Assembly (NCBI GenBank): GCA_021774195.1
Contig: JAJFJJ010000096.1
Location: 1 to 38,306 of the forward strand
Length of the DNA stretch: 38,306 nt
Source: Nitrosomonas sp.
GTDB lineage: Bacteria > Pseudomonadota > Gammaproteobacteria > Burkholderiales > Nitrosomonadaceae
Direction of reading: 5' to 3'
The notes below the pieces were generated by a model. It worked only from the letters and a program-made list of their open reading frames with translations, had not been told where the DNA came from and made no database searches. Made by a program: the position numbers and the translations under genes. Every line of letters begins with the position of its first letter. Position 1 is the stretch's first letter. Shown here in pieces: positions 3,020 through 38,306 of this stretch.

Positions 3020-3784
3020 TTAATCTTGTTCCGCATATTCGCTCGGATCATACCTTTCAGAATCATCCGGATCACACCCTAACCGTTTACCCGAAACTTG
3101 CACCACCTTCTTTAAAGTCGTCCGCGCTGAATACATACCTAAACCCAAATGCGCCAAAGTTTTGAATTTTACCGAACGATTGTATAACAGTGATGTTAAA
3201 CGAATTATATCCACACTGCCTTCAGGATAAACCGCGCTTAACAATGCATCTGGCGGAGAAAACTCGAGGGGATCAACAATTGCACGTATCGCAATAAATG
3301 GAACGCCTTCACGTGCTGCTATCCTTGCAATCGCCGCACTTTCCATATCGGCTGCACAAGCACCGGTTGCCTCACCTAATTCAAGCTTTGCCTGCGCGGA
3401 GGTTAATGGCATTGTAGATTTCGCGATTGACCCGCCGACAATGGTCAACTTCGGTGACAACATCTGTTCTAATCGATTACGCCACTGCAGCGACACGGGT
3501 AAAATTTCATTCTCAGCACCTGTATCAATAATTTCTTCAGCCAACACCAAATCACCAGGAATTAATTTTTTATCTAGCGCTGCGGCGACCCCAAAACTGG
3601 CCAAAGCCTCGACACCAAATTCCAACAAGACTTCAGATGCAAGCTGTGCGGCTTCATCACCCATACTACTTAAACATAATCTTGCATGCCGATCAATATT
3701 CGCAACCTTCATGACTGGGAAACGCAAATTCATTAAACAACTCGCTTCAGACTTCAATGCTGAAACAATCCCTACGACATACAT
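3020..3784 (-). CDS. hpnG: Hopanoid-associated nucleoside phosphorylase HpnG
   Basis: 254 residues of the purine-nucleoside-phosphorylase/MTAN fold. In the hopanoid pathway HpnG releases adenine from adenosylhopane, giving ribosylhopane (phosphoribosylhopane), the precursor of extended bacteriohopanepolyols. Visible features are the N-terminal VGIVSALKSEA, the glycine-rich FGVAAALDKKLIPGDLV, the substrate-binding ADMESAAIARIA at about 145-156 and the D171 region (RAIVDP). The ATG start overlaps the last 13 bases of shc in another frame and has AAGG four bases upstream, so the two genes are translationally coupled, matching the usual shc-hpnG order. No hpnH (adenosylhopane synthase) lies in the window; the enzyme making its substrate must be elsewhere. 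The gene ends tail to tail with the ABC transporter. Confidence 0.88.
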   Translation of the reverse strand: MYVVGIVSALKSEASCLMNLRFPVMKVANIDRHARLCLSSMGDEAAQLASEVLLEFGVEALASFGVAAALDKKLIPGDLVLAEEIIDTGAENEILPVSLQWRNRLEQMLSPKLTIVGGSIAKSTMPLTSAQAKLELGEATGACAADMESAAIARIAAREGVPFIAIRAIVDPLEFSPPDALLSAVYPEGSVDIIRLTSLLYNRSVKFKTLAHLGLGMYSARTTLKKVVQVSGKRLGCDPDDSERYDPSEYAEQD

Positions 3785-5775
3785 ACAGCCTTCTCCCTAG
3801 TCAACACACGATAACGAGCCAAGGCCCACACTGGAAAATATTTTGAATAGCCATGATATCTCAGATAAAAAACCCTTGGAAAACCAGGGGCTGTGAACCA
3901 AGGGTCATCCCATAATCCATCATCCGGTTGCGTCTCTAACAAATAATTAATACCACGACGAACCGACTCGCTACCCACCTCACCGGCAGCCATTAAGCCC
4001 AGTAACGCCCAAGCGGTTTGAAATGAGGTACTGGTATCAAATTGACCGGCTAAGTTTGAATCCAAATAAGAATCATTGGTCTCTCCCCAACCACCATCAT
4101 CTCTCTGTACAGATTTTAACCACTGGATAGCACGACGAACGCCAATATGGTCCATATCCTGATTGGCCAATTGAAACGCTTCCAGCACTGACCAGGTGCC
4201 ATAAATATAGTTGGTTCCCCAACGCCCAAACCAAGCACCATTCGATTCTTGCTCACTGAAGAGAAAATCAATGCCGCGTTGCACGGCTTCCTGATGCTGC
4301 TGTTCACCATGTTTACCGAGAAAACCAACACAACGTGCTGTCACATCGCTCGTCGGTGGGTCTATTAATGCGCCATGGTCAGCAAAGGGAATTTCATTTA
4401 AAAAATGATAAGTATTATCAACATCAAATGCAGCAAACCCACCATTCTTTGATTGCATACCAGCCAACCAGTTTGCCGCACGCATGATGCTATACTGATA
4501 CGCTTGATCATTGTCATGATTCAGCGCCCATGCCACTGCAGCAGTATCATCGAGATCAGGGTAATGTGGATTTGCGTATTGGAATGCCCAACCACCCCCC
4601 GGCAATTTTGGACAGCTATCTCGCCAATCCCCCGGCTCATCTAGAACTTGCTGTGTCACCAACCAATCCAACGCCGCTTTAACTGGTTTTTGGTCCGTAT
4701 TCTGATCTTCCTGCAAAGCAAGACCTGCCAATACCGTATCCCATATCGGTGAAGTACACGGCTGACACCAGGCACGTTCACCTTCATCAATCAGCAAACC
4801 TTGCAATGCTTTTCTACACTGGGCCCGTTGGGGATGATCATATTCGTAGCCCAATAGCGCTAAAGCCTCATGTGCATTCACCATGGCTGGAAAGATCGCA
4901 CCAATGCCACACTCTCCATTTAAGCGTTCAAGCGTCCAACGTTCGGCACGACGAATAGAAAAACGACGTATCCAATCCGGGAAACGTGGCTCCACTTTAG
5001 ATAAGACACGCTCTATCAGCATAAAAGATCGCTTCAGACGTGTATCGGCTTTGGGGAAATAGTTCTTTTCTTCTTCTGGTGGGATAACAAATAATTCACG
5101 AATATGAATATTTCGCGGATTTGCGGCGCGTGCTTTTAAGGTACATAAAATTGACAAAGGCACCATAACGGTCCGTGACCAATAGGAAACCTTACTCAAA
5201 TGAAAAGGAAACCAGCGGGGCAGTAAAATCAGTTCCGACGGAACAACCGGTATGCCTCGCCATGGGATTTGATCATACATGGCCAGCAAAATACGGGTAA
5301 AAACATTTGCTTTCGCTGCCCCACCATAATCCAAAATCGCCTTGCGGGCAGTAACCATATGCGGTTCATCTGGGGAATCCCCGACCATTTTCAAAGCATA
5401 ATATGATTTGACCGTGCAGCTAATGTCAAAATCCCCACCATAGTATAATGGCCACCCACCATGTGAAACAGCTTGTTGCTGACGAATAAAACGTGCAATC
5501 TTTTGTTCCAAGATAACATCCACTTCATCCATGAAGTGCATCATCAGGATATATTCAGCCGGTATCGTACAATCGGCTTCTAACGGGAAACACCAATGCC
5601 CATCTTCATTTTGCACGGATAACAATGATGAACGCGCTTTGGAGAACTTTTCTTCCAGCGCTACCTGGTCAACATCATTCTGATCTAATTCCTGTTGAGA
5701 AAAGGCAGACTCGCTACTATGCACCAAATTGTTAGATTTCTGAAGCACACCCGATATTTTTTGCAACCCTTTCAT
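3772..5775 (-). CDS. shc: Squalene-hopene cyclase
   Basis: 667 residues, full length. Shc (HpnF) cyclises squalene to hopene/diplopterol on the cytoplasmic membrane. The catalytic DxDDTA motif is seen as DLDDTA at 407-412, and several QW-type repeats are present (around QSKNGGFAAF 441-450, QRDDGGWGE 557-565 and QPDDGLWDDPW 616-626). A long acidic N-terminal extension of about 40 residues precedes the first repeat. Start ATG at 5775 has a weak ribosome binding site; no better start exists before the conserved LLSVQNEDGHWCF. The 3' end overlaps hpnG. A possible promoter lies at 5797-5823. No squalene-synthesis genes (hpnCDE) are in the window. Confidence 0.96.
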   Translation of the reverse strand: MKGLQKISGVLQKSNNLVHSSESAFSQQELDQNDVDQVALEEKFSKARSSLLSVQNEDGHWCFPLEADCTIPAEYILMMHFMDEVDVILEQKIARFIRQQQAVSHGGWPLYYGGDFDISCTVKSYYALKMVGDSPDEPHMVTARKAILDYGGAAKANVFTRILLAMYDQIPWRGIPVVPSELILLPRWFPFHLSKVSYWSRTVMVPLSILCTLKARAANPRNIHIRELFVIPPEEEKNYFPKADTRLKRSFMLIERVLSKVEPRFPDWIRRFSIRRAERWTLERLNGECGIGAIFPAMVNAHEALALLGYEYDHPQRAQCRKALQGLLIDEGERAWCQPCTSPIWDTVLAGLALQEDQNTDQKPVKAALDWLVTQQVLDEPGDWRDSCPKLPGGGWAFQYANPHYPDLDDTAAVAWALNHDNDQAYQYSIMRAANWLAGMQSKNGGFAAFDVDNTYHFLNEIPFADHGALIDPPTSDVTARCVGFLGKHGEQQHQEAVQRGIDFLFSEQESNGAWFGRWGTNYIYGTWSVLEAFQLANQDMDHIGVRRAIQWLKSVQRDDGGWGETNDSYLDSNLAGQFDTSTSFQTAWALLGLMAAGEVGSESVRRGINYLLETQPDDGLWDDPWFTAPGFPRVFYLRYHGYSKYFPVWALARYRVLTREKAVCMS

Positions 5776-5796
5776 ATATTTACACGCACCATATCT

Positions 5797-5823
5797 ATTA
5801 TAAAGTTTTTATAATCAGTACAA
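5797..5823 (-). promoter_or_regulatory. Possible shc promoter
   Basis: On the minus strand, TTGTAC (5818-5823) and TATAAT (5797-5802) are separated by 15 bp and lie just ahead of the shc start. The -10 is perfect but the spacer is short. The same bases form an 8-bp hairpin (5797-5815). Confidence 0.35.
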
Positions 5824-5906
5824 GAAAAAAAGTAAAAACTAGGCCTTATCTACTCGACACCTAGCCGAAAACCAAAAACACCTAACAAAACAGTCACCTA
5901 AATATT

Positions 5907-6683
5907 TTATTCCTGATCATCTGTATCAAATGGATTATCCTGAAACGGCTCATTATATAGATTCAGCGGAGGATTGCCGTCATATATCAAGTATTCCCGC
6001 TGCTGCAATGATGCCTCTCGTACAAACAAGTAGGGATCAAGCGCTGCTTGATCCCGAATACGCATTGGTCCCGATAAACGGGCCCGCTTGTCAATCGCAC
6101 CTAGCACGGTTAACGGAGCAAGTACTGTCGCTCCAACCGCATAGCTGGCATAAAACAAAACATTAGTAACCACCGATACCGGAACATTTGATACATCACG
6201 CTCACTACTAGGACCCAATAAAGGAATAAATAAATAAGATCCCGTGTCAATCCCCCATACACCTAATGTTTGGCCAAAATCTTCGTCATGTTCTTCTAAA
6301 CCCATATGGGTCGCCATATCAAAAAGACCAAACAAGCCAATCGTTGAATTCACAATAAAACGCAAGCTATCACCAAGTCCTTGGCGAAATTTTCCTTGCA
6401 AAAATGCATTTAAAACCACATTTGGATAAGACAGATTATCGTAGAAGTTCCCAATAGATCGTTGTGCGCCATCAGGCACATATTCGACATAAACATCGAC
6501 TACAGGCTCAAAAATCTTACGATCAATACTATCAGTAAAGTTATAAGACACACGATTAACATCCTCATGCGGATCAATCTCATCCACCACATCGGACTCG
6601 CCACTTTTTGGTAAAGTCTCACAACCCTGGAAAATTATAACACAAAACAATAATATTATAATAGTCAGATAGTTACAAGGCAT
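5907..6683 (-). CDS. mlaA: MlaA/VacJ-family outer-membrane lipoprotein
   Basis: MlaA sits in the outer membrane and removes misplaced phospholipids from the outer leaflet, passing them to the Mla shuttle. I choose the ATG at 6683 because AAGGAG lies at 6688-6693, four bases away; the frame is open upstream to 6725 but that start gives a poor signal peptide. From 6683 the protein has 258 residues: a lipoprotein signal (MPCNYLTIIILLFCVIIFQG) with lipidated Cys21, an acidic linker, then the MlaA core with VNRVSYNFTDSIDRKIFEP, NFYDNLSYPNVVLNAFLQGK and FGQTLGVWGIDTGSYLFIPL. Encoded upstream of shc on the same strand (131-bp gap), it fits an envelope-lipid role. The rest of the Mla system (mlaBCDEF) is not here. 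Confidence 0.92.
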   Translation of the reverse strand: MPCNYLTIIILLFCVIIFQGCETLPKSGESDVVDEIDPHEDVNRVSYNFTDSIDRKIFEPVVDVYVEYVPDGAQRSIGNFYDNLSYPNVVLNAFLQGKFRQGLGDSLRFIVNSTIGLFGLFDMATHMGLEEHDEDFGQTLGVWGIDTGSYLFIPLLGPSSERDVSNVPVSVVTNVLFYASYAVGATVLAPLTVLGAIDKRARLSGPMRIRDQAALDPYLFVREASLQQREYLIYDGNPPLNLYNEPFQDNPFDTDDQE

Positions 6684-6740
6684 TGATCTCCTTGCATTTT
6701 CCAAAACTTTAGTTTTTTCTTCCATTCACTATAAAAACAA

Positions 6741-6885
6741 TACGTAACTATTCAGTATATTGCAGCAACTGTTCTGACTGCCCCTAGAATTCATCAGTTC
6801 AAAGCACAAAATGTGAGTCTACACGTGTAAATGATCATTTTGTAGCGCAGAAATGCTGAATTCTAGGGGCGAACTGAATCGTTAC
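6741..6885. repeat. MITE-like hairpin element, copy 1 (intact ends)
   Basis: The element has imperfect outer inverted ends, GTAACTATTCAG at 6744-6755 and CTGAATCGTTAC at 6874-6885 (11 of 12 match), enclosing 14-bp perfect arms (GCCCCTAGAATTCA 6780-6793, complement at 6857-6870). Inside these are ACAAAATG/CATTTTGT arms around the palindrome TACACGTGTA. It has no coding capacity. A related copy lies at 35948-36062. It sits between hpnA and mlaA. Confidence 0.82.
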
Positions 6886-6930
6886 AACAATACTTCATTG
6901 AATACATGCCACCCCGTATATTCACGATGA

Positions 6931-7947
6931 TCAGACCTGTTGTTGCAAGGGCAATACACGCGTTATTAGCCCTCTGCTGCCCAACCACTCTATCTCGTCT
7001 GCCAGCGCCTGACGAACCGGATTCTGAGGCAGGCCAATCTCTTTCACTGCCTTACTGCTATCAAAATACATTGGGTAGCGAGCCAAACGAACACCTGTCA
7101 AAGGCGCTCGCGGCGAACGGTGCGTCACATAATCTGCCACAAATTCAGACACTGCACCTGCAGTCAGAGCCAACCAATAGGGTATCTGTGTTTTCGGCAT
7201 CGCTAAACCTGTTACTTCTTCAATCTGCAGCAACAAATCTCCTAACGTTATATTTTCATTGCCGAGAATATAACGTTCACCAAGTCTTCCATGATCCGCC
7301 GCAAGAATATGTCCTTTTGCCACATCACGCACATCAATTAAATTAAAACCGCAATCAAGGTACGCGGGTGTCTTAACATTAATAAAATCCAGAATCATTC
7401 TGGTTGGCGGGGTAACCTTATAGTCTCCAGGGCCAATCGGCAGAGTTGGCGCAACAATCACAACAGGCAAACCTGATTTAGCCGCATCAAACGCAGCTTG
7501 CTCAGCCAAAAATTTGGAACGACAATATGGGCCCGGCATTTCATCAAAAATCCTCTGGGCCGCAGCATCCACCAGTTGTGTTCGACGTGTATTACCAGTC
7601 AGAATTGACTCTGTAGAAGTATGCACCACCACTTCCAGGTCCATCCTGGCTGCCTCTTGTAGAACCGTACAAGTCCCCTCGTAATTGACTCGCCTGAAAT
7701 CACCTTTATCACGCGCCCATAAGTTCGGGTTTGCAGCTAAATGATACAATCGCTGCACCCCTTTCAAGGCACGACGTACGACATCAGCATCACAAACGGA
7801 ACCACGCACGACCTCCACTGTCGACGGCAAATCTACCTCAGGTAACTCCAAGACTCTTACTGTTTCACCTTGTTCCAATAATTGCCGAACCAAATGTGAA
7901 CCAATAAAACCACCGCCACCTGTTACTAATGAGCGCCTGTTGCTCAC
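6931..7947 (-). CDS. hpnA: Hopanoid-associated NAD-dependent sugar epimerase HpnA
   Basis: An extended short-chain dehydrogenase/epimerase of 338 residues from GTG at 7947. That start is chosen because GAGGAGG (7954-7960) lies six bases upstream; the frame is open to 8019 but the extra 24 residues precede the Rossmann fold without similarity. Seen from the GTG: nucleotide-binding TGGGGFIGSHL at about 9-19, catalytic YxxxK as YCRSK (Y141, K145), and HpnA-type signatures LWARD, SKFLAEQAA, GPGDYKVTPPTRMI and GERYILGNENITL. HpnA homologues accompany hopanoid clusters and are thought to modify a sugar or side chain of bacteriohopanepolyols; the exact reaction is not settled. It lies 171 bp after exbB-like, with a MITE-like element separating it from mlaA. 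Confidence 0.83.
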   Translation of the reverse strand: MSNRRSLVTGGGGFIGSHLVRQLLEQGETVRVLELPEVDLPSTVEVVRGSVCDADVVRRALKGVQRLYHLAANPNLWARDKGDFRRVNYEGTCTVLQEAARMDLEVVVHTSTESILTGNTRRTQLVDAAAQRIFDEMPGPYCRSKFLAEQAAFDAAKSGLPVVIVAPTLPIGPGDYKVTPPTRMILDFINVKTPAYLDCGFNLIDVRDVAKGHILAADHGRLGERYILGNENITLGDLLLQIEEVTGLAMPKTQIPYWLALTAGAVSEFVADYVTHRSPRAPLTGVRLARYPMYFDSSKAVKEIGLPQNPVRQALADEIEWLGSRGLITRVLPLQQQV

Positions 7948-8118
7948 ATCAAGCCTCCTCTTATCCAGACAAAAAGCCTTACCTATCACAAAGCCAGAAT
8001 AAATAATCGGGGTTATCAAGCTTAGTGCATCTACTTGATATTAGGAAATTTCAGATTGACTCACACAAATCGATATTACGATCAATCAGAGACTTCACAG
8101 GAATCATCTTTTAAAAAA

Positions 8119-12417: not shown

Positions 12418-14565
12418 TTACCAACTGATCGGAGTGTAATAATTGATGAAAGAAGGGTTATGCCGGATCACTATGTTACGGGTCTCGTTGTAGATTCGAT
12501 CGTGATCATCGAAACCTGAATACGTGTTACTGGTTCGATTATCCGTAACAACGTCAGTAACCGTACCAAAATCATCTGTTTCATGTCCGCTACTGGCAGT
12601 CATAGCAAATTCAGTTGCGACCATGGCAGGTGTATAGTACTCGGTTGCGTTAGCAAAGTTTCCGAAGTCTTTTTCGACGTCACCCGTATAGCGGTTGGCC
12701 AATTGTATTGTTTTAACATCTTCGGATGTTACAACCGAATAGAACAGAAAACGACCATCAAAAGAAACGGAAGGAGCGACTTCCGAAATACCGGGGGTTT
12801 CCGTAAATTGAGAAACGCTATTGTCCGTTAGGTCCATTTGATAAATATCAAAAGTACTGCTGCCGCTAGCGATATCCATCGCAGAAAAGAACAGATTTTT
12901 TCCATCTGGAGTGATTGTTCCACCGGGATTAATTAGGCGCCCCGTTGTCCACAACTCTGAGGTTAATTTTGTCTCAAGATCATACTTATCAATAGTAGAG
13001 ATATACCAGTCATGGTGCTCCAGGGTACGATATATTATCGATTTGCTATCCGTGGACCAGGTAGGGCCTGCGGCACCGTAAAAAATCACATCAAGATCCT
13101 CCCTGGGCGCTGTCGAGCTAATCGATAAATTGGTGACCGTATGTAGTATCGCTCCCGTAGATATATTGGCAATGACAATATTATAAGCACCTTGATCAGT
13201 TGGCTTGCCCGACTGAGCGGCATTCACAGTGATACAGGCATAAGCAACTTTAGAACCTTCTGGCGATACTTGCGGCGTTATGCAGTATTGATTGGAGCCC
13301 GTTATAGATCGGACTTGTTCCTCGCCGAGCTGTTTTGTGTAAATTCGCTGTAACTGGTAATCAGTGGTGGCAAGAGTGCTGTTGTCTACGTCGGCAAATA
13401 CAATTCGGTCTCCACCAATATTAATATGAGGGGTGTAACCCTGTGCGATAAAATCCCACTGCATTCCGTCGATGTTAGACATTCCCACATTACGCTCGTC
13501 CCCGCCGCCAGTCAACGGTTTCCTGGCGCCAAAAACAAAGCCCGGGTTGAGTGGGTTCAGGGGGTTATCAATGAGATCCTGCAGGTTTCGATTATACGAA
13601 TCACCCGCACCATAGGCGTTTAAAGTGTTGACATCCTCTAACAACTCGATATCCAATCCAGTTCCTTCATTGAGTTGATCCACCGTGATATTAAATATGG
13701 CTTCAATTAAACGATCACCCTGGTGGCTTTGATCCCGCTCAACTTGGAATAACTTGTATCGTTCTATCCCGCTTTTAGCCAATGATTTCCAAGTGTCCAG
13801 CTTGTCTTCATGCCCAGTAAAAGTGCTATTACTATTCGCTTTGTTGGTATGAAATGCCGTGGTGTAAATCAGGTTAAACTCAACCTCTGCACTTAGATCC
13901 AGATCCTGAAACAAATCATCTTCCATCGTGTCTGTAATGAGCGAGAAGCCGCCGCCATTGCCTAAGACCGCAGAAACAATATAAGCTTTGCCTCGCTCTA
14001 CGGTGAATTCGAAGTCCAGTGTTTCCACTAGCTCGCTCAAAGGTGCTTGCGCAGTGGAGTTTTCAGCCGCGGTGAATTGACAATCGCCAATTTGCTGCCA
14101 TAACAAATCATGCAAACAGACATAATTAACCCCGCCGGAAGGTAGATTATTGGTGTATTGGGTAAAGATATCCGGCGGGATCACGGTGCCTTTAATCCTC
14201 GGTGCGTCCGGTGTAAAGGCATCAGCACGGGTCACCGTAAAATAGCTACCATTGAAAAGCAGTTCGACATGCAACCAAGCATCATTGAACTTCACCATCG
14301 GCAAATCAACCGTTCGCGTTTCTGCATTGAATGTTGCTGCGGTATCTTTCACGTCTGTTAACAGACTAGTAGACGCCAGCTCGAAATCCAATTCGCCTAC
14401 GTGTCGTAGCGTAGCCTGGAAATAGCTATCTCCCACCTTTACCACAGGAATTTCAATGGATAGATCGACGGGGTTCACATTGGCGGCGAGTTCTGCTTTT
14501 GATATAAGTGAGTAGCCTAATATAGCCAAAGACAAAACGAGGGAAGTGATTATTGAACGTGTCAT
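12418..14565 (-). CDS. Secreted PD40/TolB-like beta-propeller protein of unknown function
   Basis: 715 residues from ATG 14565, chosen because GGAGGG (14573-14578) lies seven bases upstream; an ATG at 14580 would itself overlap that site. A signal peptide (MTRSIITSLVLSLAILGYSLISKA) directs export. The N-terminal 120 residues hold two related segments (IEIPVVKVGDSYFQATLR and VDLPMVKFNDAWLHVELLFN), a beta-rich repeat seen in various secreted proteobacterial proteins. From about 420 to 640 come PD40-type propeller blades (ITPQVSPEGSKVAYA, PTWSTDSKSIIYRT, GTITPDGKNLFFSA, APSVSFDGRFLFYS). No catalytic motif is visible. Four cysteines sit in the region 150-450. It is the last of four minus-strand genes for exported proteins but is separated from them by 202 bp, so co-transcription is uncertain. 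Confidence 0.78.
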   Translation of the reverse strand: MTRSIITSLVLSLAILGYSLISKAELAANVNPVDLSIEIPVVKVGDSYFQATLRHVGELDFELASTSLLTDVKDTAATFNAETRTVDLPMVKFNDAWLHVELLFNGSYFTVTRADAFTPDAPRIKGTVIPPDIFTQYTNNLPSGGVNYVCLHDLLWQQIGDCQFTAAENSTAQAPLSELVETLDFEFTVERGKAYIVSAVLGNGGGFSLITDTMEDDLFQDLDLSAEVEFNLIYTTAFHTNKANSNSTFTGHEDKLDTWKSLAKSGIERYKLFQVERDQSHQGDRLIEAIFNITVDQLNEGTGLDIELLEDVNTLNAYGAGDSYNRNLQDLIDNPLNPLNPGFVFGARKPLTGGGDERNVGMSNIDGMQWDFIAQGYTPHINIGGDRIVFADVDNSTLATTDYQLQRIYTKQLGEEQVRSITGSNQYCITPQVSPEGSKVAYACITVNAAQSGKPTDQGAYNIVIANISTGAILHTVTNLSISSTAPREDLDVIFYGAAGPTWSTDSKSIIYRTLEHHDWYISTIDKYDLETKLTSELWTTGRLINPGGTITPDGKNLFFSAMDIASGSSTFDIYQMDLTDNSVSQFTETPGISEVAPSVSFDGRFLFYSVVTSEDVKTIQLANRYTGDVEKDFGNFANATEYYTPAMVATEFAMTASSGHETDDFGTVTDVVTDNRTSNTYSGFDDHDRIYNETRNIVIRHNPSFINYYTPISW

Positions 14566-14767
14566 GGATAGACCCTCCAAGAGTGGATAGGAAAAATAAA
14601 CACCTTTTTCGTTAAAGTAAAATATACGTTAAACTGAGAATACAGTAAAGCTCACCACGAGCAGTCTGCAGGGGGCTCTGCAGTGGTCAAACCTGTTTAT
14701 TAACATTAGGTCTATGCATCCCCAGTTGCCACAATGACTGAGGATTCCTGACCAAATACGTTGTCAA

Positions 14768-16498
14768 TCAAACAAGCAATTCGCCAATCAGTTTACTCAT
14801 GAGAGGACTGGTATTAGCCAGAGTGAGGCCCATCAGCACGAGCAGCAAAGCGCCAAGAAACCAAAGTACAGTAAAATAATTTTGCCATAGTTTCATGTAA
14901 TCAACGTTGGTTTCTGACACCACATAACGAATGCCTTTGGCCCCAACCTTGAATAAAATCAGAAACGTGAACGAAAATGCCATGCCAATATGCGTAGCAA
15001 GGGAGCTAGGAAACTCAGGAGCCACAGAAAAATCTCTTGATTCAATTGGTTGGTAGATCTTGGTTGTGCCGCCTGAAGACTGCATGAAGTTAGCATTGCG
15101 ATCGAAAGATACACGGGCAAGCAATCCTTTTGCAGCGATGACCGGCAATGCGGCCAGTAACCAGATCACCAAAGAAAGGAGCAGGATGCGGCCTGATTTT
15201 GTGCCGTATCCAGTCGGCAGCCCCCATAAGACTCTTTCCGCATAAACAATTACGCGCTGGCCAAGGGCATCTATAAAAGCCAGGCTTTGTTGCGTTGCAC
15301 TGGGTAGCGGAGTGGCAACGGTTTCCATAAATTTTCGGGATTCGAGATGATAACGGGCATCGAGTGCGCCGTTGGTGTCTCCGCTAGTTTTTAGCCGATT
15401 GTGGAATGCAGTTAATATCCTGGAATCCGGGTTGGTTGCCAAAAACGGCTGTTTGATTTCCTGCCAGTAGAAATGAAGCGCCGCAACATTGGCGTTTGCA
15501 AAGTTTAGTGACCCGTCGGCGCGAACACCCGCGAAATCAGCACTTTGATTGCCAAAGTTAGTATAACGGAAGCTGGCTCCGCCAGCACCAAAATGGGCGT
15601 CGACAAAACTTGTTTCGCCACGAAACTCGGCATAGTCATAATGAGCGGACTGCATGACACAGCCGCGAAAATCGGCCCTTTTGGCAAACAGGGTCAGATT
15701 GTTCCGATTGCCAAAATCAGCCGCACCAATGTGACAGAAACGAAATTCGGCGTCACCCATAAAATGCACATTACGAAAACCAGCACCGGATTCGAAGCGA
15801 GTGTTGAGAAATGAAACATCTTGATTAAATAGCACGGATTGAAACTTAGCCTGAGTCAGGAAGCGAGTATTATTAAAAATCGCTGGGCTTTCAAAAACCG
15901 CATTAGCGAAACTGGTGGCTTTTGATAAAGGGGCATTCCGTCCGAATTCACTCGCAAGAAACGCGGTGCGACCAGAAAAGACCGCGTTGCGAAAGCTTGG
16001 CGCGCGCAAAAATTTAGTGTTATGAATAGTGACGGCGCTTTGAAACTGGTTGTGATTAAAGCGGGTAAAGCCATTAAATACGCAGTCTTGAATGATCAGA
16101 TCGCCGGATAAAATGGAATCACTGAGAATAAATTTTTGCAGTTCACAATGCTGTAGGTAGAGCTGTTGATTAAATTGGCTGTTATCGATACGAATATCTA
16201 TATCCAATGTGTGTTGTGACAATGTCACTGGGCCGGAAAAAACGACATTTGAAATGCGTACACTGGTTTTTGAACGAGGGTGATCGGCAAGACTGGTTAA
16301 ATCAGCAAAATCAAACTGATCAGTAATGATCACGGCGGATAATTCACCGGTTTGTTGCAAACGAAGATAAGCTGCATCGGCTGAAATGGGTTCAATAGCC
16401 CAGGCGGATTGTTTAACGACGAGTAAACAAATCAATAATTTAATGTAATGAAGAAAGGTAATTTTAGGCCATGCACCCAACTTTAATCGGTCTCGCAA
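14768..16498 (-). CDS. Exported pentapeptide-repeat protein with C-terminal membrane domain
   Basis: 576 residues from TTG 16498; another TTG at 16480, just past the upstream stop, is equally possible. A signal peptide ends near SAWA (31-34). Residues about 80-345 are pentapeptide repeats with Phe/Leu every fifth position (for example FRNAVFSGRTAF, FLNTRFESGAGFRNVHF), predicting a right-handed quadrilateral beta-helix of roughly 50 repeats. Then follow a linker, WGLPTGYGTKSGRI (425-438) and membrane helices at about 436-456, 502-518 and 538-562. This order (repeats, then a TGYG-type segment and helices) occurs in pentapeptide proteins with ion-channel-like ends, but a channel function is only a guess. 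The start overlaps the preceding gene by 16 bp, so the three-gene set with the protease is probably co-translated. Confidence 0.8.
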   Translation of the reverse strand: MRDRLKLGAWPKITFLHYIKLLICLLVVKQSAWAIEPISADAAYLRLQQTGELSAVIITDQFDFADLTSLADHPRSKTSVRISNVVFSGPVTLSQHTLDIDIRIDNSQFNQQLYLQHCELQKFILSDSILSGDLIIQDCVFNGFTRFNHNQFQSAVTIHNTKFLRAPSFRNAVFSGRTAFLASEFGRNAPLSKATSFANAVFESPAIFNNTRFLTQAKFQSVLFNQDVSFLNTRFESGAGFRNVHFMGDAEFRFCHIGAADFGNRNNLTLFAKRADFRGCVMQSAHYDYAEFRGETSFVDAHFGAGGASFRYTNFGNQSADFAGVRADGSLNFANANVAALHFYWQEIKQPFLATNPDSRILTAFHNRLKTSGDTNGALDARYHLESRKFMETVATPLPSATQQSLAFIDALGQRVIVYAERVLWGLPTGYGTKSGRILLLSLVIWLLAALPVIAAKGLLARVSFDRNANFMQSSGGTTKIYQPIESRDFSVAPEFPSSLATHIGMAFSFTFLILFKVGAKGIRYVVSETNVDYMKLWQNYFTVLWFLGALLLVLMGLTLANTSPLMSKLIGELLV

Positions 16499-17010
16499 AA
16501 CTGATGGTGAGGCGTTTGTTGTATCAAACGGGTAAGGACGCCTACCAGCATGCCCAATTCATCTAGGCTAAAGTCCACTTGCATGTGATTGCCGGTGTTG
16601 ACGATACTTCTGCCAGCCATGCGCTTAAGTGTTTTCAAGTTGTTGGGTGTCGCAGACAGGTGGCATAGTGATAGGCGTAATTGTTCAAATACACCGGTTT
16701 CTATCTGCTGTACTTTGTGATCCAATGAAACAACAGTCATGTGACTACCTGCGCTTAAAGTATCTTCAATGGTTTCAAACAGTTCAAAACGGAGGTCTTC
16801 TGCCTGATAATCGGCCAAAGCATCATAATATTCTGAGAACGCTTGGTTGAATGCTGAGTTTTCCATCACACGGGTATCCCATGTCATATTTTTTCCTGAT
16901 AGCGGCAAACAGAGGACAAGAAGAAACAGCCCGAGAAGAAACGCGTACTGTACCGGACGATAGTTTGTACGGGTTATAGCCAGAATTCCAGTCATAGCGT
17001 TATAGGCCAT
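16483..17010 (-). CDS. Small membrane-anchored protein of unknown function
   Basis: 175 residues; I do not recognise the family. A single hydrophobic segment (about 21-38, YAFLLGLFLLVLCLPLSG) would act as signal anchor or signal peptide, leaving about 135 residues outside the cytoplasm. The rest is helical-looking and acidic (NQAFSEYYDALADYQAEDLR), with two cysteines (C116 region and C172) that could pair. The start ATG at 17010 overlaps the protease stop by 11 bp, and the stop overlaps the pentapeptide gene by 16 bp. This tight overlap on both sides supports a real gene and a joint task with its neighbours. An in-frame ATG at 16995 is an alternative start. No function can be assigned. Confidence 0.7.
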   Translation of the reverse strand: MAYNAMTGILAITRTNYRPVQYAFLLGLFLLVLCLPLSGKNMTWDTRVMENSAFNQAFSEYYDALADYQAEDLRFELFETIEDTLSAGSHMTVVSLDHKVQQIETGVFEQLRLSLCHLSATPNNLKTLKRMAGRSIVNTGNHMQVDFSLDELGMLVGVLTRLIQQTPHHQFCETD

Positions 17011-18151
17011 ATTCTTCTTTCAGGTTTCTACATTCCATTGCGATTAACATTTCAAATAACGCGATATCCTGGTCACTGTCCGAGCTTTCCCCATGATACA
17101 AGCTATAAGGTGATTGCGCCAATTGTCTAAGCGAGTGGGATGCGCGCCGGATATTAGCCGGATGCGTTTTTGGGAAAAAAACTTTGATGGCGCCTCTCCC
17201 AGTGTTTTTTCGTTGAGCAACTAATTCGTTGTAAATGCCCGAACCAAGCTGAATACGCATAGCGCTATGAATGTTTTTGCTGTCTGTCGCAGACAAGGTG
17301 TCGATCATTTGTTCGCTCATGCTGTAAAGAATATACCAGTGCGCGCCAATTTCGTAGCGTAACAGCGGCTTTTCAAGAATGCCGGGCGGAAAGAGAATTT
17401 TGCTTAAAAGCGATACCGCAAAATCATCAGCTTCTTGTTCAATCGATTGTTGCAAACGATATTTTTCACCAATTAGATCCGCGCATACCCAGTGCTTGTC
17501 TTTATCCTCTTTATTGTTAAAACGAAGCGGAATGCGTCGTTTGGTTACACTTTGGTCGCCAAGGGCGATATGCCCTACTTCATGCGCCAGAATAAAAGCT
17601 AAAGCACCTGAAGCTAAAAGAGCCCATTCTTCGGTATATTCCGCATTAGTTAGTGCCGAGTTAATTCGTGGATTCCATATCGGTTGAAAAGCATCAATAC
17701 CCCGCGCTTTGATTGCACCGACAGCGGTAACTGTTTCATAATTGTCATAGGAAACGAGATGAGCTGTTGTGATCAGGAATTTTAATAACAGCGTATCAAC
17801 AAATAATATTTGAGTCGCTTCATGTGCCATTGCATTACCTTGAATGCTTAATCGCGCTAACTCGATTTCGTAGTCTGCCAAAATATTGGCTTCAGGTAAG
17901 CGAGTACTATCAACCAAATAAATATTAATCAAACCATCGACATAAGGTTTGTTAATGCGATAACCCGGCCATTTACCAGCTGTCTGAATGATCGTACCGG
18001 CGATTTCTTCTACTTCTTTAAGCAGGTAATCTTCCAATACATTATTTTTCTGTAATATTGTATATATGCCCGATGGCGAGATTGACTGATCAGCCTTAAC
18101 TGGCAAGGCTGTACTCAATGCGAATAATAAAATAACCAGAAAACGAAACAT
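17000..18151 (-). CDS. Exported HEVGH zinc metalloprotease (gluzincin-like)
   Basis: 383 residues. A short signal peptide (MFRFLVILLFALSTALPVKA) predicts export to the periplasm. The zinc site is complete: HEVGH at 190-194 supplies two histidines and the catalytic glutamate, and E240 in EQEADDFA is the expected third ligand, as in M48-like gluzincins. The segment before HEVGH (WALLASGALAFILA, 176-189) is hydrophobic and may lie against the membrane. It is not a clear HtpX or BepA orthologue: no multi-helix membrane part and no TPR tail. It heads the overlapping three-gene set and is divergent from the second ftsH (178 bp apart). Substrate unknown; the linked exported proteins are candidates. 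Confidence 0.78.
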   Translation of the reverse strand: MFRFLVILLFALSTALPVKADQSISPSGIYTILQKNNVLEDYLLKEVEEIAGTIIQTAGKWPGYRINKPYVDGLINIYLVDSTRLPEANILADYEIELARLSIQGNAMAHEATQILFVDTLLLKFLITTAHLVSYDNYETVTAVGAIKARGIDAFQPIWNPRINSALTNAEYTEEWALLASGALAFILAHEVGHIALGDQSVTKRRIPLRFNNKEDKDKHWVCADLIGEKYRLQQSIEQEADDFAVSLLSKILFPPGILEKPLLRYEIGAHWYILYSMSEQMIDTLSATDSKNIHSAMRIQLGSGIYNELVAQRKNTGRGAIKVFFPKTHPANIRRASHSLRQLAQSPYSLYHGESSDSDQDIALFEMLIAMECRNLKEEYGL

Positions 18152-18329: not shown

Positions 18330-20156
18330 ATGGACAAAAACGAACAAATCAACTTCTGGTACGTCATGGTGGCCCTGTTAAGCATTTTGGTTGTGCAATC
18401 CCTTTACAATGAATATACCAAAATTGAGCCGATTTCCTACAGCCACTTCCAGACGCTCCTAGAAAAAGGACAAGTATCTGAAATTGAAATCACTGATCAG
18501 TATATTTATGGCAAGTTGAAGGTCCCGCATGGAACGGGGCTTCAGGATTTTATTACCACAAGGGTAGAACCGGAGTTTGCCGAGGATCTGGATAAATACG
18601 GAGTCAGTTATTCCGGCGTCGTAAGTAGTACCTGGTTAAGCGATTTGTTGTCCTGGTTACTACCGGTGGCTGTTTTTGTCGGGGTCTGGTTATATTTCAT
18701 TCGCCGCATAAGCAGAAATATGATGGGCGGTGGCATGATGTCGGTCGGTAAGAGTCACGCCAAGGTGTTTGTCGAGCAAGAAACCAAAGTAACGTTCGAC
18801 GATGTAGCTGGAGTGGATGAAGCCAAGGAGGAGTTGGTTGAAATCATCAATTTCCTAAAAAATCCGGCGGAATATGGTCGTTTAGGTGGACGTGCGCCCA
18901 AGGGTATCTTGCTGGTTGGACCACCTGGCACCGGCAAGACGTTACTGGCACGGGCCGTGGCCGGTGAGGCGAGGGTGCCATTCTTTTCTATCTCCGGTTC
19001 GGAATTTGTTGAGATGTTTGTTGGTGTAGGAGCAGCCAGAGTGCGCGATTTGTTCGAACAAGCACGAAAATTAGCGCCGGCGATTATATTTATTGATGAG
19101 CTGGATGCGTTGGGGCGTGCCCGTGGTGCTTTTGGTTCGGGTGGTGGTGGCCATGATGAGAAGGAACAGACGCTAAATCAGTTGCTGGCTGAATTGGATG
19201 GTTTTGACCCCAGTAGTGGCATTGTGTTATTGGCCGCAACTAATCGGCCTGAAATACTTGATCCGGCCTTGTTGCGCGCCGGGCGCTTTGATCGTCAGGT
19301 GCTGGTGGACCGGCCCGACAAGCTGGGACGTGAACAGATTCTTGCGGTACATGTAAAAAAGGTGAAGTTACATACCGATGTGCTGATTAAACAAATTGCC
19401 GCTTTGACGCCCGGATTTACCGGTGCGGACCTGGCCAATCTGATCAATGAAGCGACTTTACTGGCGACACGGCGGAATGCCGCTGCTGTCACCATGAATG
19501 ACTTTAATAATGCCATTGAGCGCATTGTCGCCGGATTAGAAAAACGCAATCGTTTGCTGAATCCAAATGAACGCCGGGTAGTCGCGTATCATGAATTGGG
19601 ACATGCGATGGTGGCGCTGGCATTGCCCGGAACAGATGAAGTACATAAAGTTTCCATCATTCCGCGTGGGATTGGGGCTTTAGGCTATACCATTCAGCGC
19701 CCAACAGAAGATCGTTATTTGATGACCCGTTCCGAGTTGCAAAACAAAATGGCGGTATTGCTCGGCGGACGTGCGGCAGAACAAATGATATTTGAAGAAA
19801 TCTCAACCGGTGCTTCGGATGATCTGGGTCGTGCAACCGACATCGCCCGTGCCATGGTGCTGCGTTACGGCATGAGTGAGGTACTGGGGAATGTAGCCTA
19901 TGAGCGTGAAAACTCAGCTTTTCTGCAACCCAATGTGCCGATACTACAGACGCGAGAGTACAGTGAAGATACAGCCCAGAAAGTGGATGGCGCCGTGCGT
20001 GTTTTGATCGATCAGGCATTGGAACGAGCGTTGAGTATTTTGCAGACAAACCGTGCTTTGTTGGACCAAACTGCTGAAGAATTATTGGAAACAGAAACGC
20101 TGAATCAACCCGAAATTGAGAAAATAAAACAGGATATTGCTCACAAAGCTTTATAA
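18330..20156 (+). CDS. ftsH: Second FtsH-family membrane AAA+ zinc protease
   Basis: 608 residues with the full FtsH layout: N-terminal helix (about 9-24), short periplasmic domain, second helix (about 107-124), AAA+ module with Walker A GPPGTGKT (197-204), Walker B FIDE (254-257) and arginine-finger region [20 protein letters not shown] (304-323), then the M41 protease with HELGH (421-425) and third ligand near D498. It differs from the canonical FtsH at 25224-27158: HELGH instead of HESGH, a histidine/glycine insert after Walker B ([11 protein letters not shown]), and no acidic C-terminal tail. Such paralogues coexist with housekeeping FtsH in several Proteobacteria. It is divergent from the exported protease set, hinting at shared envelope quality control. 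ATG 18330 has weak AAGAG upstream. Confidence 0.92.
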
Positions 20157-25223: not shown

Positions 25224-27158
25224 TTAATCGGCGCTTTTCGCAACGCCTTGTGAAGATGGTGTATCCGATTCTTCATCAGACTCATCTGTTACTTCATCAT
25301 CAGACAAAACCTCATCACTTTCTGCCGAAGCCGTTGTTTGAGCCGGCTTTGGAGGGCGCGGCGGTTTGCCTGCCATGATGTCATTAATCTGATCACTATC
25401 AATTGTTTCCCATTCCAGCAAAGCTTTTGTCATGGCCTCAATTTTGTCTTTATTGTCCTCAATGAGCTTACGCGCAAGGGCATACTGCTCATCAACAATT
25501 CGACGAATCTCAGCGTCTACCTTCTGCATGGTTTGTTCACTCATATTTTTATGAGTCGTCACCGAACGCCCAAGGAACACTTCACCTTCATTCTCACCGT
25601 AAACCATTGGCCCAAGTGAATCAGTCATTCCCCATTGGGTAACCATCTGACGTGCTAAATCTGTTGCACGTTCAAAATCATTTGAAGCGCCTGTCGTCAT
25701 TTGCTTCATAAAAACTTCTTCTGCAATACGGCCACCGAACATCACCGCTAAGCGCTGCAAAATTTCCTCACGCTCCATACTGAAACGATCTTCAGTCGGC
25801 AATTGCATGGTGACACCTAATGCTCGTCCACGTGGAATAATTGTGACCTTATGAACTGGGTCTGTTTTTGGTAGCAATTGTGCAACAACGGCATGACCAG
25901 ATTCATGATACGCGGTATTCATACGCTCATGCTCAGGCATCACCATTGAACGTCGCTCTGCACCCATGAAAATTTTATCTTTAGCACGTTCGAAATCGTC
26001 CATATCGACCAAACGCTTGTTACTACGTGCAGCAAATAATGCAGCCTCATTAACTAGATTAGCCAGATCCGCACCAGACATTCCTGGCGTACCACGTGCA
26101 AGAATATCGGCTTTAACGTCAGGAGATAACGGCACTTTCCGCATATGTACTCCCAGGATTTGCTCGCGGCCTCTGATATCCGGTAATGGCACAGTAACCT
26201 GCCGATCAAAACGCCCTGGGCGTAACAAAGCAGGATCCAATACATCAGGACGGTTTGTTGCAGCAATCACGATAACGCCCATCGCTCCCTCAAAACCATC
26301 CATCTCAACCAATAGTTGGTTCAATGTTTGCTCACGCTCATCATTACCACCGCCAAGACCTGCACCACGCTGGCGACCAACGGCATCAATCTCATCAATA
26401 AAGATAATGCAAGGTGCGTGTTTCTTAGCTTGCTCAAACATGTCTCGCACTCTTGACGCACCGACACCAACAAACATTTCAACGAAATCTGAACCAGAAA
26501 TACTAAAGAATGGAACGCCCGCCTCACCAGCAATTGCTCGTGCCAATAAGGTTTTACCCGTGCCCGGACTACCAACCATCAGGACACCTCGTGGAATACG
26601 TCCCCCCAGTTTCTGGAATTTGGTTGGGTCACGAAGAAACTCCACTAACTCAGAGACTTCTTCTTTGGCTTCTTCACAACCAGCAACATCATCAAATGTC
26701 ACCGGATTAGTAGATTTATCCAGCATGCGCGCTTTACTTTTACCAAATGAAAAAGCACCACCTTTGCCGCCAGCACCACCTTGCATTTGACGCATAAAGA
26801 AAATCCAGACGGCTATTAATAGCAGCATCGGGAACCATGAGATAAAAATGCTCATCAGCATGGATGGCTCTTCCTCAGGTTTTGCTTCTATAATGACACC
26901 AGATTTAAGTAAATCACTGACCATCCAGGGGTCGGATGGCGCGTAAGTAGTAAATCGTCTGCCATCAGACTTGGTCCCTCTAAGGGTACGCCCGTCAATA
27001 ACAACTTTGGCAATTCGGCCTTGATTCAACTCAGCGATGAATTGCGAATATTCCATTGGCACTTGTGCCGGTTGGCGCACACTGAATTGATTAAATACCG
27101 TCATTAATACTAGTGCAATCACTAGCCAAATGGCCATATTTTTAATTAAATTATTCAA
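25224..27158 (-). CDS. ftsH: Canonical FtsH membrane AAA+ zinc protease
   Basis: 644 residues from TTG at 27158, fixed by AAGGAG five bases upstream. FtsH degrades misassembled membrane proteins and short-lived regulators. Order: membrane helix (about 8-24), periplasmic domain, second helix (about 103-122), AAA+ module with Walker A GSPGTGKT (196-203; Ser where Pro is usual), Walker B FIDE (253-256), arginine-finger region [20 protein letters not shown] (301-320), then M41 protease with HESGH (418-422) and [15 protein letters not shown] carrying the third zinc ligand. The tail is acidic and proline-rich. It follows rlmE as in E. coli and Betaproteobacteria. A long antisense frame (25966-26790) is a shadow. 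Confidence 0.97.
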
Positions 27159-36951: not shown

Positions 36952-38306
36952 GGCTCTTCTCCGGTTATATGTATAAAAAAGGATGCCATAAGTACATTAA
37001 TCTGTTGAAATAAAAGGTTTCGACAACTTTACATACAACGGACAAAATGAGCTTAGGCATCCCGGTATCGATATTGGCATTAAAAGGTCAAAAGATCAAT
37101 GAAATACAGTTTGATGAGGAAGACAACAAAGTTATCGTCAAATCTCGGCGAGACAAACGAAGGGCCTTTATAGACCCTCTGACAGGATTAAAAGGGAGGT
37201 TGAATCGCCTGATCCGACGACAAGTTAGAGACATACCTGTTTTTGGTTATCCATGCTGGATAGAAATTGAATTGGCGCAAGTCTTTATCAGTAAAAATGA
37301 ACGCCGGATGGAGTCGTGCCCGTTTCTCGATAAGGGGAGTTATTTTACTCGCAGGTATTGTCGTCTAGTGAGTGGATTATGTCGGCACATGAGCATTGAT
37401 GCGGTATCCCGGCACTTGGGTCTGCGTTGGGAAAGTGTCAAGAATATAGACAGGGACTATTTGCAACAAACACTTCCGGCACTGGAGCCTGAAGAGCTCA
37501 CGGATTTAAGAATCATTGGGGTGGATGAAGTAGCCAGAGCCAAGGGACATGATTATATGACGGTTGTTTATGACATGATCAAAGGGCACTTAATCTGGGT
37601 TGCAACGGGACGTACTTCAGAAGTATTCTCAGATTTCCTAAAGCAGCTGCCGCTTGATACAGCTAATAATATTGAAGCTGTGGCCATGGATATGGGGCCG
37701 GCCTATCAAAAATCCGTGCGGGAATATTTGCCGCACGCTGACATCGTATTTGATCGATTTCATGTGATGAAAAACTATAGTAATGCGATCAAGAATCAAC
37801 GTAGAGTTGAGTTTAGAAAGGCAAATCAAGAAAGCAAAGAACTCATGAAAGGTTGTCATTATCTGTTATTGAAGAATGCTGAAAAGCTCACGGACAAGCA
37901 ATCGAAAAAACTAAATCGCCTGTTGGAAGAAAATGCCAATATGAATACTTTGTATGTCTTGAAAGAACAGTTGCAAGCACTCTGGAACAATTCGGATAAA
38001 AGAACCATGGAACATCATTTAGAACAATGGTGTGATCTGGCCGAACAAACAAATATGACCTATATTAAATCGTTTGTCCGTTCACTAAGAAAGCATAAAC
38101 AAGGAATATGTAACTATGCTAAATATCATATGACATCGGCTCGAATTGAAGCAGGTAATGTCAGTATCGGCATGATTCGTAAACGTGCCAGGGGAATCCG
38201 TGATACAGAATATTTTAAACTTAAAATTAGACAAACATCGGTTCCTGATAACCTGAGCATGTTCTATGTTGCAACATAGATACACTCACAAGACCGGAGA
38301 AGAACC
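36952..38306 (+). mobile_element. Complete ISL3-family insertion sequence
   Basis: Terminal inverted repeats are GGCTCTTCTCCGGTTAT (36952-36968) and, at 38290-38306 on the minus strand, GGTTCTTCTCCGGTCTT (14 of 17 match), in the GGCTCTT style of ISL3 ends. Length is 1355 bp with one transposase gene. ISL3 elements usually duplicate 8 bp; the left copy would be 36944-36951 (GAATTGTG) and the right copy lies past the window end. Confidence 0.9.
37047..38279 (+). CDS. tnpA: ISL3-family DDE transposase
   Basis: 410 residues, full length and uninterrupted, so probably active. The catalytic triad of the DDE transposase fold is visible: D160 in IIGVDEVARAKGHDY, D215 in AVAMDMGPAYQ, E368 in ARIEAGNVSIGMIRKRARG. 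A helix-turn-helix-like segment (MSIDAVSRHLGLRWESVKNI, 115-134) precedes the catalytic core. The N-terminal CxxC zinc ribbon typical of many ISL3 transposases is not obvious here; C70 and C91 are the only cysteines in that part. ATG 37047 is preceded by GGA only. 95 bp separate the left inverted repeat from the start and 10 bp separate the stop from the right one. Confidence 0.93.
   Translation: MSLGIPVSILALKGQKINEIQFDEEDNKVIVKSRRDKRRAFIDPLTGLKGRLNRLIRRQVRDIPVFGYPCWIEIELAQVFISKNERRMESCPFLDKGSYFTRRYCRLVSGLCRHMSIDAVSRHLGLRWESVKNIDRDYLQQTLPALEPEELTDLRIIGVDEVARAKGHDYMTVVYDMIKGHLIWVATGRTSEVFSDFLKQLPLDTANNIEAVAMDMGPAYQKSVREYLPHADIVFDRFHVMKNYSNAIKNQRRVEFRKANQESKELMKGCHYLLLKNAEKLTDKQSKKLNRLLEENANMNTLYVLKEQLQALWNNSDKRTMEHHLEQWCDLAEQTNMTYIKSFVRSLRKHKQGICNYAKYHMTSARIEAGNVSIGMIRKRARGIRDTEYFKLKIRQTSVPDNLSMFYVAT

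Follow-up and report, generated by a model that had tools for sequence, protein, structure and literature searches.

A constrained three-gene unit in two Nitrosomonas genomes encodes an M48-like zinc protease, a small protein, and a pentapeptide-repeat membrane protein, all apparently exported

All four M48 zinc metalloproteases of Escherichia coli appear to be involved in the quality control of membrane-protein biogenesis (PMC7950410). In one of these enzymes, BepA, zinc is bound by H136, H140, and E201, with H246 of the plug as a fourth ligand. Movement of the plug is needed for function, and a double-cysteine form of BepA in which the plug is presumably tethered resembled the protease-dead form in its behavior (PMC7950410). 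The motif that contains the plug histidine, HPx4R, is conserved in the M48 family and is expected also in Lit (PMC7950410). A second point of reference comes from Caulobacter, whose secreted pentapeptide protein YjbI disappears through stress-induced proteolysis (PMC12864828). YjbI is reported to lie in the lipopolysaccharide layer, with a charged C-terminal tail that crosses the outer membrane (PMC12864828). When the cells are stressed with zinc, copper, sucrose, or acid, the protein is absent or can barely be detected, and two envelope-stress systems are activated (PMC12864828). The authors propose that extracytoplasmic proteases are responsible, either of the CtpA type or a metal-dependent periplasmic one; the sections of the paper at hand name no proven protease for YjbI and discuss rhizobial ExoR, a small helical periplasmic regulator (PMC12864828). 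Here, we describe three adjacent minus-strand genes in a 38,306-nucleotide stretch of DNA from Nitrosomonas sp. (contig JAJFJJ010000096.1; referred to as the window) that encode an M48-like protease (P0001), a small protein (P0002), and a pentapeptide-repeat membrane protein (P0003). Our literature search returned no paper that joins pentapeptide repeats with the M48 family, and titles and abstracts on pentapeptide repeats in combination with metalloproteases, the periplasm, or operons described no operon like this trio. The review PMC8145042, in the sections at hand, names the pentapeptide membrane protein HglK and no protease.

The trio recurs in a congener designated G858, where the three genes (locus L075) lie in identical order, overlap by exactly 11 and 16 bp, and share the TTG start of the pentapeptide gene. 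Amino acid identity between the two genomes is 71% for the protease, 56% for the small protein, and 62% for the pentapeptide protein. Across the three genes, identity at codon position 3 is 0.46–0.48 versus 0.74–0.87 at position 2. Estimates by NG86 of nonsynonymous (dN) and synonymous (dS) divergence were 0.17 and 2.8 for the protease gene and 0.28 and 2.1 for the pentapeptide gene; dN of the small gene was 0.33 with dS not computable, and dS is saturated, so that the dN/dS ratios are rough. Considered together, the low identity at position 3, the high identity at position 2, and dN/dS indicate that all three genes look constrained as proteins. Similarity at the DNA level falls into two BLASTN pieces (window 18078–15133, 69.4%; 14880–14767, 72.8%). 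Its 3′ edge coincides with the pentapeptide stop codon, and its 5′ edge lies 73 bp inside the protease gene. Only 3 of the 26 window proteins, those of the trio, matched at E 1e-4 within the 19.9-kb G858 region. The trio is flanked by ftsH and a β-propeller gene in the window. In G858, one side carries mnmA together with Nudix and DUF4019 genes; on the other, a small open reading frame (ORF) is followed by rhodanese and L,D-transpeptidase genes. Because order, overlaps, and protein-level constraint repeat in G858, this grouping of ORFs is not due to chance. The trio behaves as a real gene unit that is under constraint and occupies different chromosomal sites, and its retention in two related species points to a small cell-envelope module that has not been described before.

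An earlier note, made from the window alone, had described three minus-strand genes with overlaps of 11 and 16 bp, and the corresponding ORFs are present as described (Table 1). That note had looked to homologues lying apart, or to overlaps lost in close relatives, as grounds for doubt; the sole clear homologue of the protease that was found has both partners at its side and identical overlaps. Some latitude exists in the gene starts. The pentapeptide gene has a second possible TTG at codon 7, likewise present in G858, and a start there leaves a 2-bp gap in place of the 16-bp overlap in both genomes alike. The G858 protease probably starts at a GTG (L075:9586) that is preceded by AAGGAGG; as aligned here, that protein (P0004) lacks its first four residues. 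The export signals reported earlier for all three products correspond to hydrophobic N-termini in three of three trio proteins, as judged by hydropathy and by inspection for sites resembling those of signal peptidase.

The zinc-protease site noted earlier was confirmed and proved to be accompanied by two further M48 motifs. The HEVGH sequence occupies residues 190–194 of the window protease and reads HELGH in G858. Downstream, E238-Q-E-A-D242 aligns with the invariant E201 and A204-D205 of BepA, and H330-P331-x4-R336, which fits the HPx4R motif and follows a T in the window protease, is present in both Nitrosomonas enzymes. An alignment shows HExxH, ExxAD, and HPx4R in the same order as in E. 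coli BepA, LoiP, YcaL, and HtpX, of which YcaL appears closest by eye. When the residues downstream of HExxH were permuted, ExxAD and HPx4R both arose at allowed spacing in 0.017% of 200,000 shuffles, and HPx4R alone appeared in the tail in 1.2% of them. We therefore call the window protease M48-like on the strength of these motifs. It also shares a signal-like N-terminus with BepA, YcaL, and LoiP. It differs from the M48 enzymes in scoring below the gathering threshold of the family, in having similarity that was detected at the zinc-site motifs only, in carrying about 40–45 additional residues ahead of the plug when aligned, and in the linkage of its gene to a pentapeptide gene. A search of PDB yielded no match to the protease up to E 5. 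By analogy to BepA, the protease should probably be self-plugged and in need of activation.

Pfam, NCBIfam, PADLOC, and PHROGs offered no credible family for the small protein, in agreement with its earlier description as unrecognised. A Pfam match to Vac14_Fig4_bd (19.6 bits versus a cut-off of 25) was dropped, as it is absent from the G858 homologue, and two PDB matches found with the profile of the small protein (E 0.31 and 0.52) were regarded as chance hits. The conserved body of the protein starts at NMTW (residues 41–44) and is dense from there on. In the hydrophobic stretch upstream, character is kept between the two genomes and sequence less so. The protein had been described as anchored, which now appears doubtful: C34 within the hydrophobic stretch is not conserved in G858, and the G858 protein contains an SSA-Q sequence that, by eye, resembles a signal-peptidase site. 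Thus, the small protein is more probably soluble in the periplasm than anchored. C116 and C172 are invariant between the two genomes, as are C223 and C374 of the protease and C118, C139, C255, and C280 of the pentapeptide protein (P0006 in G858). Outside the signal segments, invariant cysteines thus number two, two, and four in protease, small protein, and pentapeptide protein; these even numbers in all three products would fit disulfide bonds formed in an oxidizing periplasm.

The assignment of the third product as a pentapeptide-repeat membrane protein was borne out. The Pentapeptide_3 family (PF13576) matches five stretches in each of the two homologues (E 7.3e-23 in the window; 1.2e-18 in G858), and the protein combines a signal-like N-terminus with a hydrophobic C-terminus in which membrane segments are located at about residues 438, 500, and 542. 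In the G858 homologue, the middle segment does not reach the threshold, which leaves two to three C-terminal helices. In a single-sequence model of low confidence (predicted local distance difference test score, pLDDT, 51.6), a strand ladder spans residues 78–322 or thereabouts, followed by a helical linker (about 336–425) and helices at 434–472, 498–527, and 532–561. Fold searches with this model gave no PDB match at E≤0.001; the best hits were β-helix pectate lyases, and a pentapeptide protein appeared at rank 16 (E 0.98). The sequence itself had no PDB match up to E 0.1. Identity to G858 is 0.69 for residues 131–345, 0.69 for the linker, 0.74 for the last helix and tail, and 0.36–0.38 in the loops between helices. 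We infer that the C-terminal helices lie in the inner membrane and that the solenoid faces the periplasm.

The earlier note had attached importance to a TGYG sequence and raised the possibility of a gate. TGYG is indeed present (residues 429–432, within WGLPTGYGTK at 425–434), directly before the first membrane helix. It is the only GYG in the protein, and the filter position reads FTFLILFKVGAKGIRY. In alignments made by eye, pentapeptide proteins of Halorussus (L072) and Rhodococcus (L071) have CGYG and SGYG, respectively, at the equivalent place. The Halorussus protein additionally has a filter-like TIGYGDIGP between its last helices; at that place, the window protein reads LILFKVGAKGIRY. 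Because the pre-helix GYG recurs in these two proteins and the filter stretch is absent, TGYG is not a channel filter; a reading of TGYG as part of a potassium channel or gate was rejected on these grounds.

Ten pentapeptide proteins and their loci, found by their repeats, served for comparison; the set is small and some of its loci are short. Eight of the ten proteins (L065–L072, including one from Niveispirillum, L070) share repeats, linker, and C-terminal hydrophobic helices with the window protein. Unlike the latter, six of these eight have no hydrophobic N-terminus. That of L069 depends on a doubtful start, that of L071 is weak, and the start of L068, one of the six, is likewise doubtful, as the open frame extends beyond the ORF used. 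The two proteins without C-terminal helices have a hydrophobic N-terminal segment (L073) or none (L064). Export of the solenoid therefore seems to set the window protein apart from other pentapeptide membrane proteins. Among ORFs of at least 60 amino acids, none of the ten loci contains an HExxH gene with ExxAD and HPx4R, and HExxH ORFs occur in just two. One, in L068, encodes a 686-amino acid HEVLH protein, presumably of the M1 type, and is convergent with the pentapeptide gene. The other is a short gene annotated as an M50 metallopeptidase on the Streptomyces plasmid pRL1 (L073, 3284–6335), which lies near the pentapeptide gene on the opposite strand and adjoins an annotated Pycsar-effector gene. 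These two cases could be read as weak support for a link to proteases or to defense. The trio stays together in G858. Regular pairing with a protease of this type is not seen for pentapeptide membrane proteins in general.

The trio is rare. The protease was found in its own genome only among 101 relatives and in 1 of 369 genomes of the class. Of 125 genomes in the family, two encode it and both carry the whole trio; the second is G858, which belongs to neither the 101-relative nor the 369-genome set, and this family-wide search was made with the protease only. The small protein was confined to its own genome among the 101 relatives, as was the C-terminal part of the pentapeptide protein among 274 genomes of the class. 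Hits to the full-length pentapeptide protein came from three other genomes of the 101 at E 0.001 and, in a phylum-wide search of 398 genomes at E 1e-6, from four others, each time in the repeat stretch only. An order-level search with a two-row protease profile returned 6 of 399 genomes at E≤0.1, namely the window genome and five weak partial matches (E 0.0067 to 0.1) that we discounted, as they span 36–67 residues and three cross stop codons. Two genome-contig scans, sensitive to close relatives only, revealed no relatives. The earlier note had proposed checking whether the pairing is kept across genera; outside the genus nothing convincing was found. The protease, the one product covered by the phage search, had no match in phages or plasmids, and its profile found no relative in viral contigs. 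Plasmids contained no match to the small protein or to the pentapeptide C-terminus, and viral contigs no relative of the pentapeptide protein. Searching plasmids with the whole pentapeptide protein gave repeat-only hits in 46 records; no match extended over 80% of its length, and the 20 matches listed all fall within residues 30–361. A phage or plasmid origin of the trio was rejected on the outcome of these searches, of which the one in phages covered the protease.

These observations are best read as a periplasmic module for regulated proteolysis or quality control. In the specific model that we put forward tentatively, the trio would be a translationally coupled envelope module that comprises a plugged periplasmic M48-type protease, an anchored solenoid, and a small linking or controlling protein. 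The three genes are probably translationally coupled. The protease would rest in a plugged state, inhibited by the histidine of its own HPx4R motif as in BepA, and the pentapeptide β-solenoid, anchored in the inner membrane and facing the periplasm, may provide a docking platform or a stress-sensing element. The small soluble protein might link the protease to the solenoid or control both. Together, solenoid and small protein would bring the protease to an envelope client, or release it on one, possibly the solenoid itself, and damage to the envelope would thereby be converted into local proteolysis. The substrate, the direction of control, and the role of the small protein are guesses on our part; the earlier note had similarly supposed cleavage or control of the pentapeptide part by the protease, with the small protein as inhibitor or adaptor, which may be so. 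The combination of a metalloprotease, a small periplasmic protein, and a secreted pentapeptide protein bears a suggestive resemblance to the YjbI and ExoR cast, and YjbI offers the nearest published precedent, a pentapeptide protein whose proteolysis serves as a stress switch. By description, YjbI has a pentapeptide solenoid, a secretion signal, conserved cysteines, and an envelope setting (PMC12864828), features that the window protein, with its hydrophobic N-terminus and four invariant cysteines outside it, may share. They differ in that the window protein ends in two to three hydrophobic helices, presumably in the inner membrane, rather than in a charged outer-membrane tail, and in that a protease gene resides in the same operon. 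It is tempting to go further and view the trio as a portable, self-contained stress-sensing operon with protease, control protein, and solenoid target or sensor, a one-operon version of YjbI-type proteolysis; we regard this extension as unlikely. The functions of exported pentapeptide-repeat membrane proteins are poorly understood. The compact operon provides a genetic handle, with three genes, perhaps one complex, and a catalytic residue to test. Should the protease work on the solenoid, or by way of it, stress removal of secreted pentapeptide proteins would become directly testable.

Several observations weigh against this model. The window protease scores 17.7 bits against the Pfam M48 family (PF01435), below the cut-off of 20.3, and its G858 homologue scores 12.8; a match of the latter to Peptidase_M78 is also below cut-off (17.2 versus 22). 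Profile alignment to M48 with hhalign gave a probability of only 45.8% (E 2.1e-4) over 22 columns, compared with 0.1% for the small protein used as control. The single-sequence model of the protease (pLDDT 33) is unusable, that of the pentapeptide protein is weak, and no interaction is supported by structure. The signal peptides were assigned by hydropathy and inspection by eye. The parallels with YjbI and ExoR are analogies drawn from published descriptions. Finally, the evidence for the unit comes from two genomes only, and its linkage may in part be due to common descent of a neutral block.

Among other explanations, the protease may be a quality-control enzyme that, like BepA and YcaL, degrades misfolded outer-membrane or periplasmic proteins, with its two partners merely positioning it and neither cleavage of the solenoid nor sensing involved. 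This is in keeping with the apparent service of the four E. coli enzymes in membrane-protein quality control (PMC7950410), with the alignment of catalytic, ligand, and plug motifs to all four of them, YcaL closest by eye, and with the pentapeptide linker (0.69) and last helix and tail (0.74) being as conserved as the solenoid core (0.69). A protease with a housekeeping function, however, should be more widespread than the 2 of 125 family genomes that encode this one, and no similarity of the protease to M48 was detected outside the zinc-site motifs; we think this explanation rather unlikely, if not strongly so. Another view is that the trio is a rare accessory block of lineage-specific genes held together by chance or shared transcription with no joint function. 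Only two genomes are known to carry the trio, and the adjoining β-propeller gene was likewise not found in 40 other congeners. Against this stand the base-exact overlaps, the protein-level constraint on all three genes, the persistence of the trio where the synteny around it is lost, and the failure to find the neighboring propeller gene in G858 (in a search without positive control). We regard an arrangement devoid of joint function as improbable.

An accessory cassette for defense or competition, whose effector would be the protease and which would counter attack at the envelope by phage, by bacteriocins, or through cell contact, is suggested by the patchy occurrence of the trio at different sites. 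Weak resemblances of the protease point the same way: PADLOC relates it to CapP (E 1.1e-5) and to Lit (E 0.031), NCBIfam again to Lit (E 7.6e-4), and PHROGs to the phage families 1914 (E 2.4e-5) and 2439 (E 4.6e-5). The distant pentapeptide gene of pRL1 lies near annotated M50-peptidase and Pycsar-effector genes. PerA of Caulobacter concerns bacteriocin sensitivity. The name PerA is also used for YjbI (PMC12864828). Yet the CapP, Lit, and PHROGs hits are limited to the zinc-site stretch (residues 160–284, approximately), such that the likeness to Lit (U49) and CapP is not a full-length family match, and the plug motif is expected in Lit too (PMC7950410), so that these hits establish no specific link. 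All three trio products look exported, the window protease included, and the protease has neither a phage or plasmid match nor a relative in viral contigs. No defense gene was named among the neighbors scanned with Pfam or NCBIfam in either genome, and the PADLOC search covered just the trio plus the propeller gene. About 5 kb from the trio in G858 lies an EndoU nuclease domain. We rejected the trio as a defense system because the similarity of its protease is confined to the catalytic stretch, and we give little credence to the broader idea of an envelope cassette for defense or competition.

Table 1 Positions of the trio genes, their overlaps, and the region similar to G858 within the window
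Feature	Position	Strand	Length	Remarks
M48-like zinc metalloprotease (P0001)	17000..18151	-	383 aa	Apparently exported; N-terminal signal-like segment
Small protein (P0002)	16483..17010	-	175 aa	Apparently exported; no known family
Pentapeptide-repeat membrane protein (P0003)	14768..16498	-	576 aa	Apparently exported; TTG start
Protease/small-protein overlap	17000..17010	-	11 bp	Same length in G858
Small-protein/pentapeptide overlap	16483..16498	-	16 bp	Same length in G858; TTG start in both
DNA similarity to G858	14767..18078	-		BLASTN, two pieces

Directly downstream of the trio, the window encodes a 720-amino acid protein (12418–14580, minus strand) with a signal-like start and similarity to TolB-like propellers (TIGR02800, E 3.9e-13; 49 bits versus a cut-off of 343). 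The gene was found neither in any of 40 other congeners nor in G858 (the latter search without positive control), which indicates that it is not part of the trio unit. No direct repeats of at least 8 bp join the flanks of the trio in the window, and there was no excess of promoters or terminators, no tRNA, and no RNA family at gathering score. Two FtsH genes are present in the window, at 18330–20156 (plus strand) and 25224–27158 (minus strand); their products are 49% identical. The former has a full-length match of 75–82% identity in 35 of 40 other congeners. None of the 20 congener ftsH regions that were fetched keeps a window neighbor beside this gene, except that some have weak matches (26–37%) to GGDEF, ABC-transporter, and transposase genes.

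Elsewhere, the window includes the gene run carAB-greA-rlmE-ftsH-folP-glmM-pstS and an apparent hopanoid run (3020–8019, minus strand) of a phosphorylase-superfamily gene, a squalene-hopene cyclase, an MlaA-like lipoprotein, and an epimerase-family gene; this gene content points to a Nitrosomonas-like host. An ISL3-family transposase (37047–38279, plus strand; NF033550, E 1.3e-90), which has no near match in plasmids, is located at the contig end. In G858, an ORF of 84 amino acids with a signal-like start (MKKMVLAAVAAMFVFGS) lies just downstream of the trio (L075 13228–13482, plus strand). About 5 kb beyond the trio, a gene on the same strand as this ORF (L075 17824–18438, plus strand) encodes a signal-like N-terminus followed by the EndoU nuclease domain (PF14436, E 5.5e-18); small genes come after it, and the group may represent a secreted nuclease with partners.

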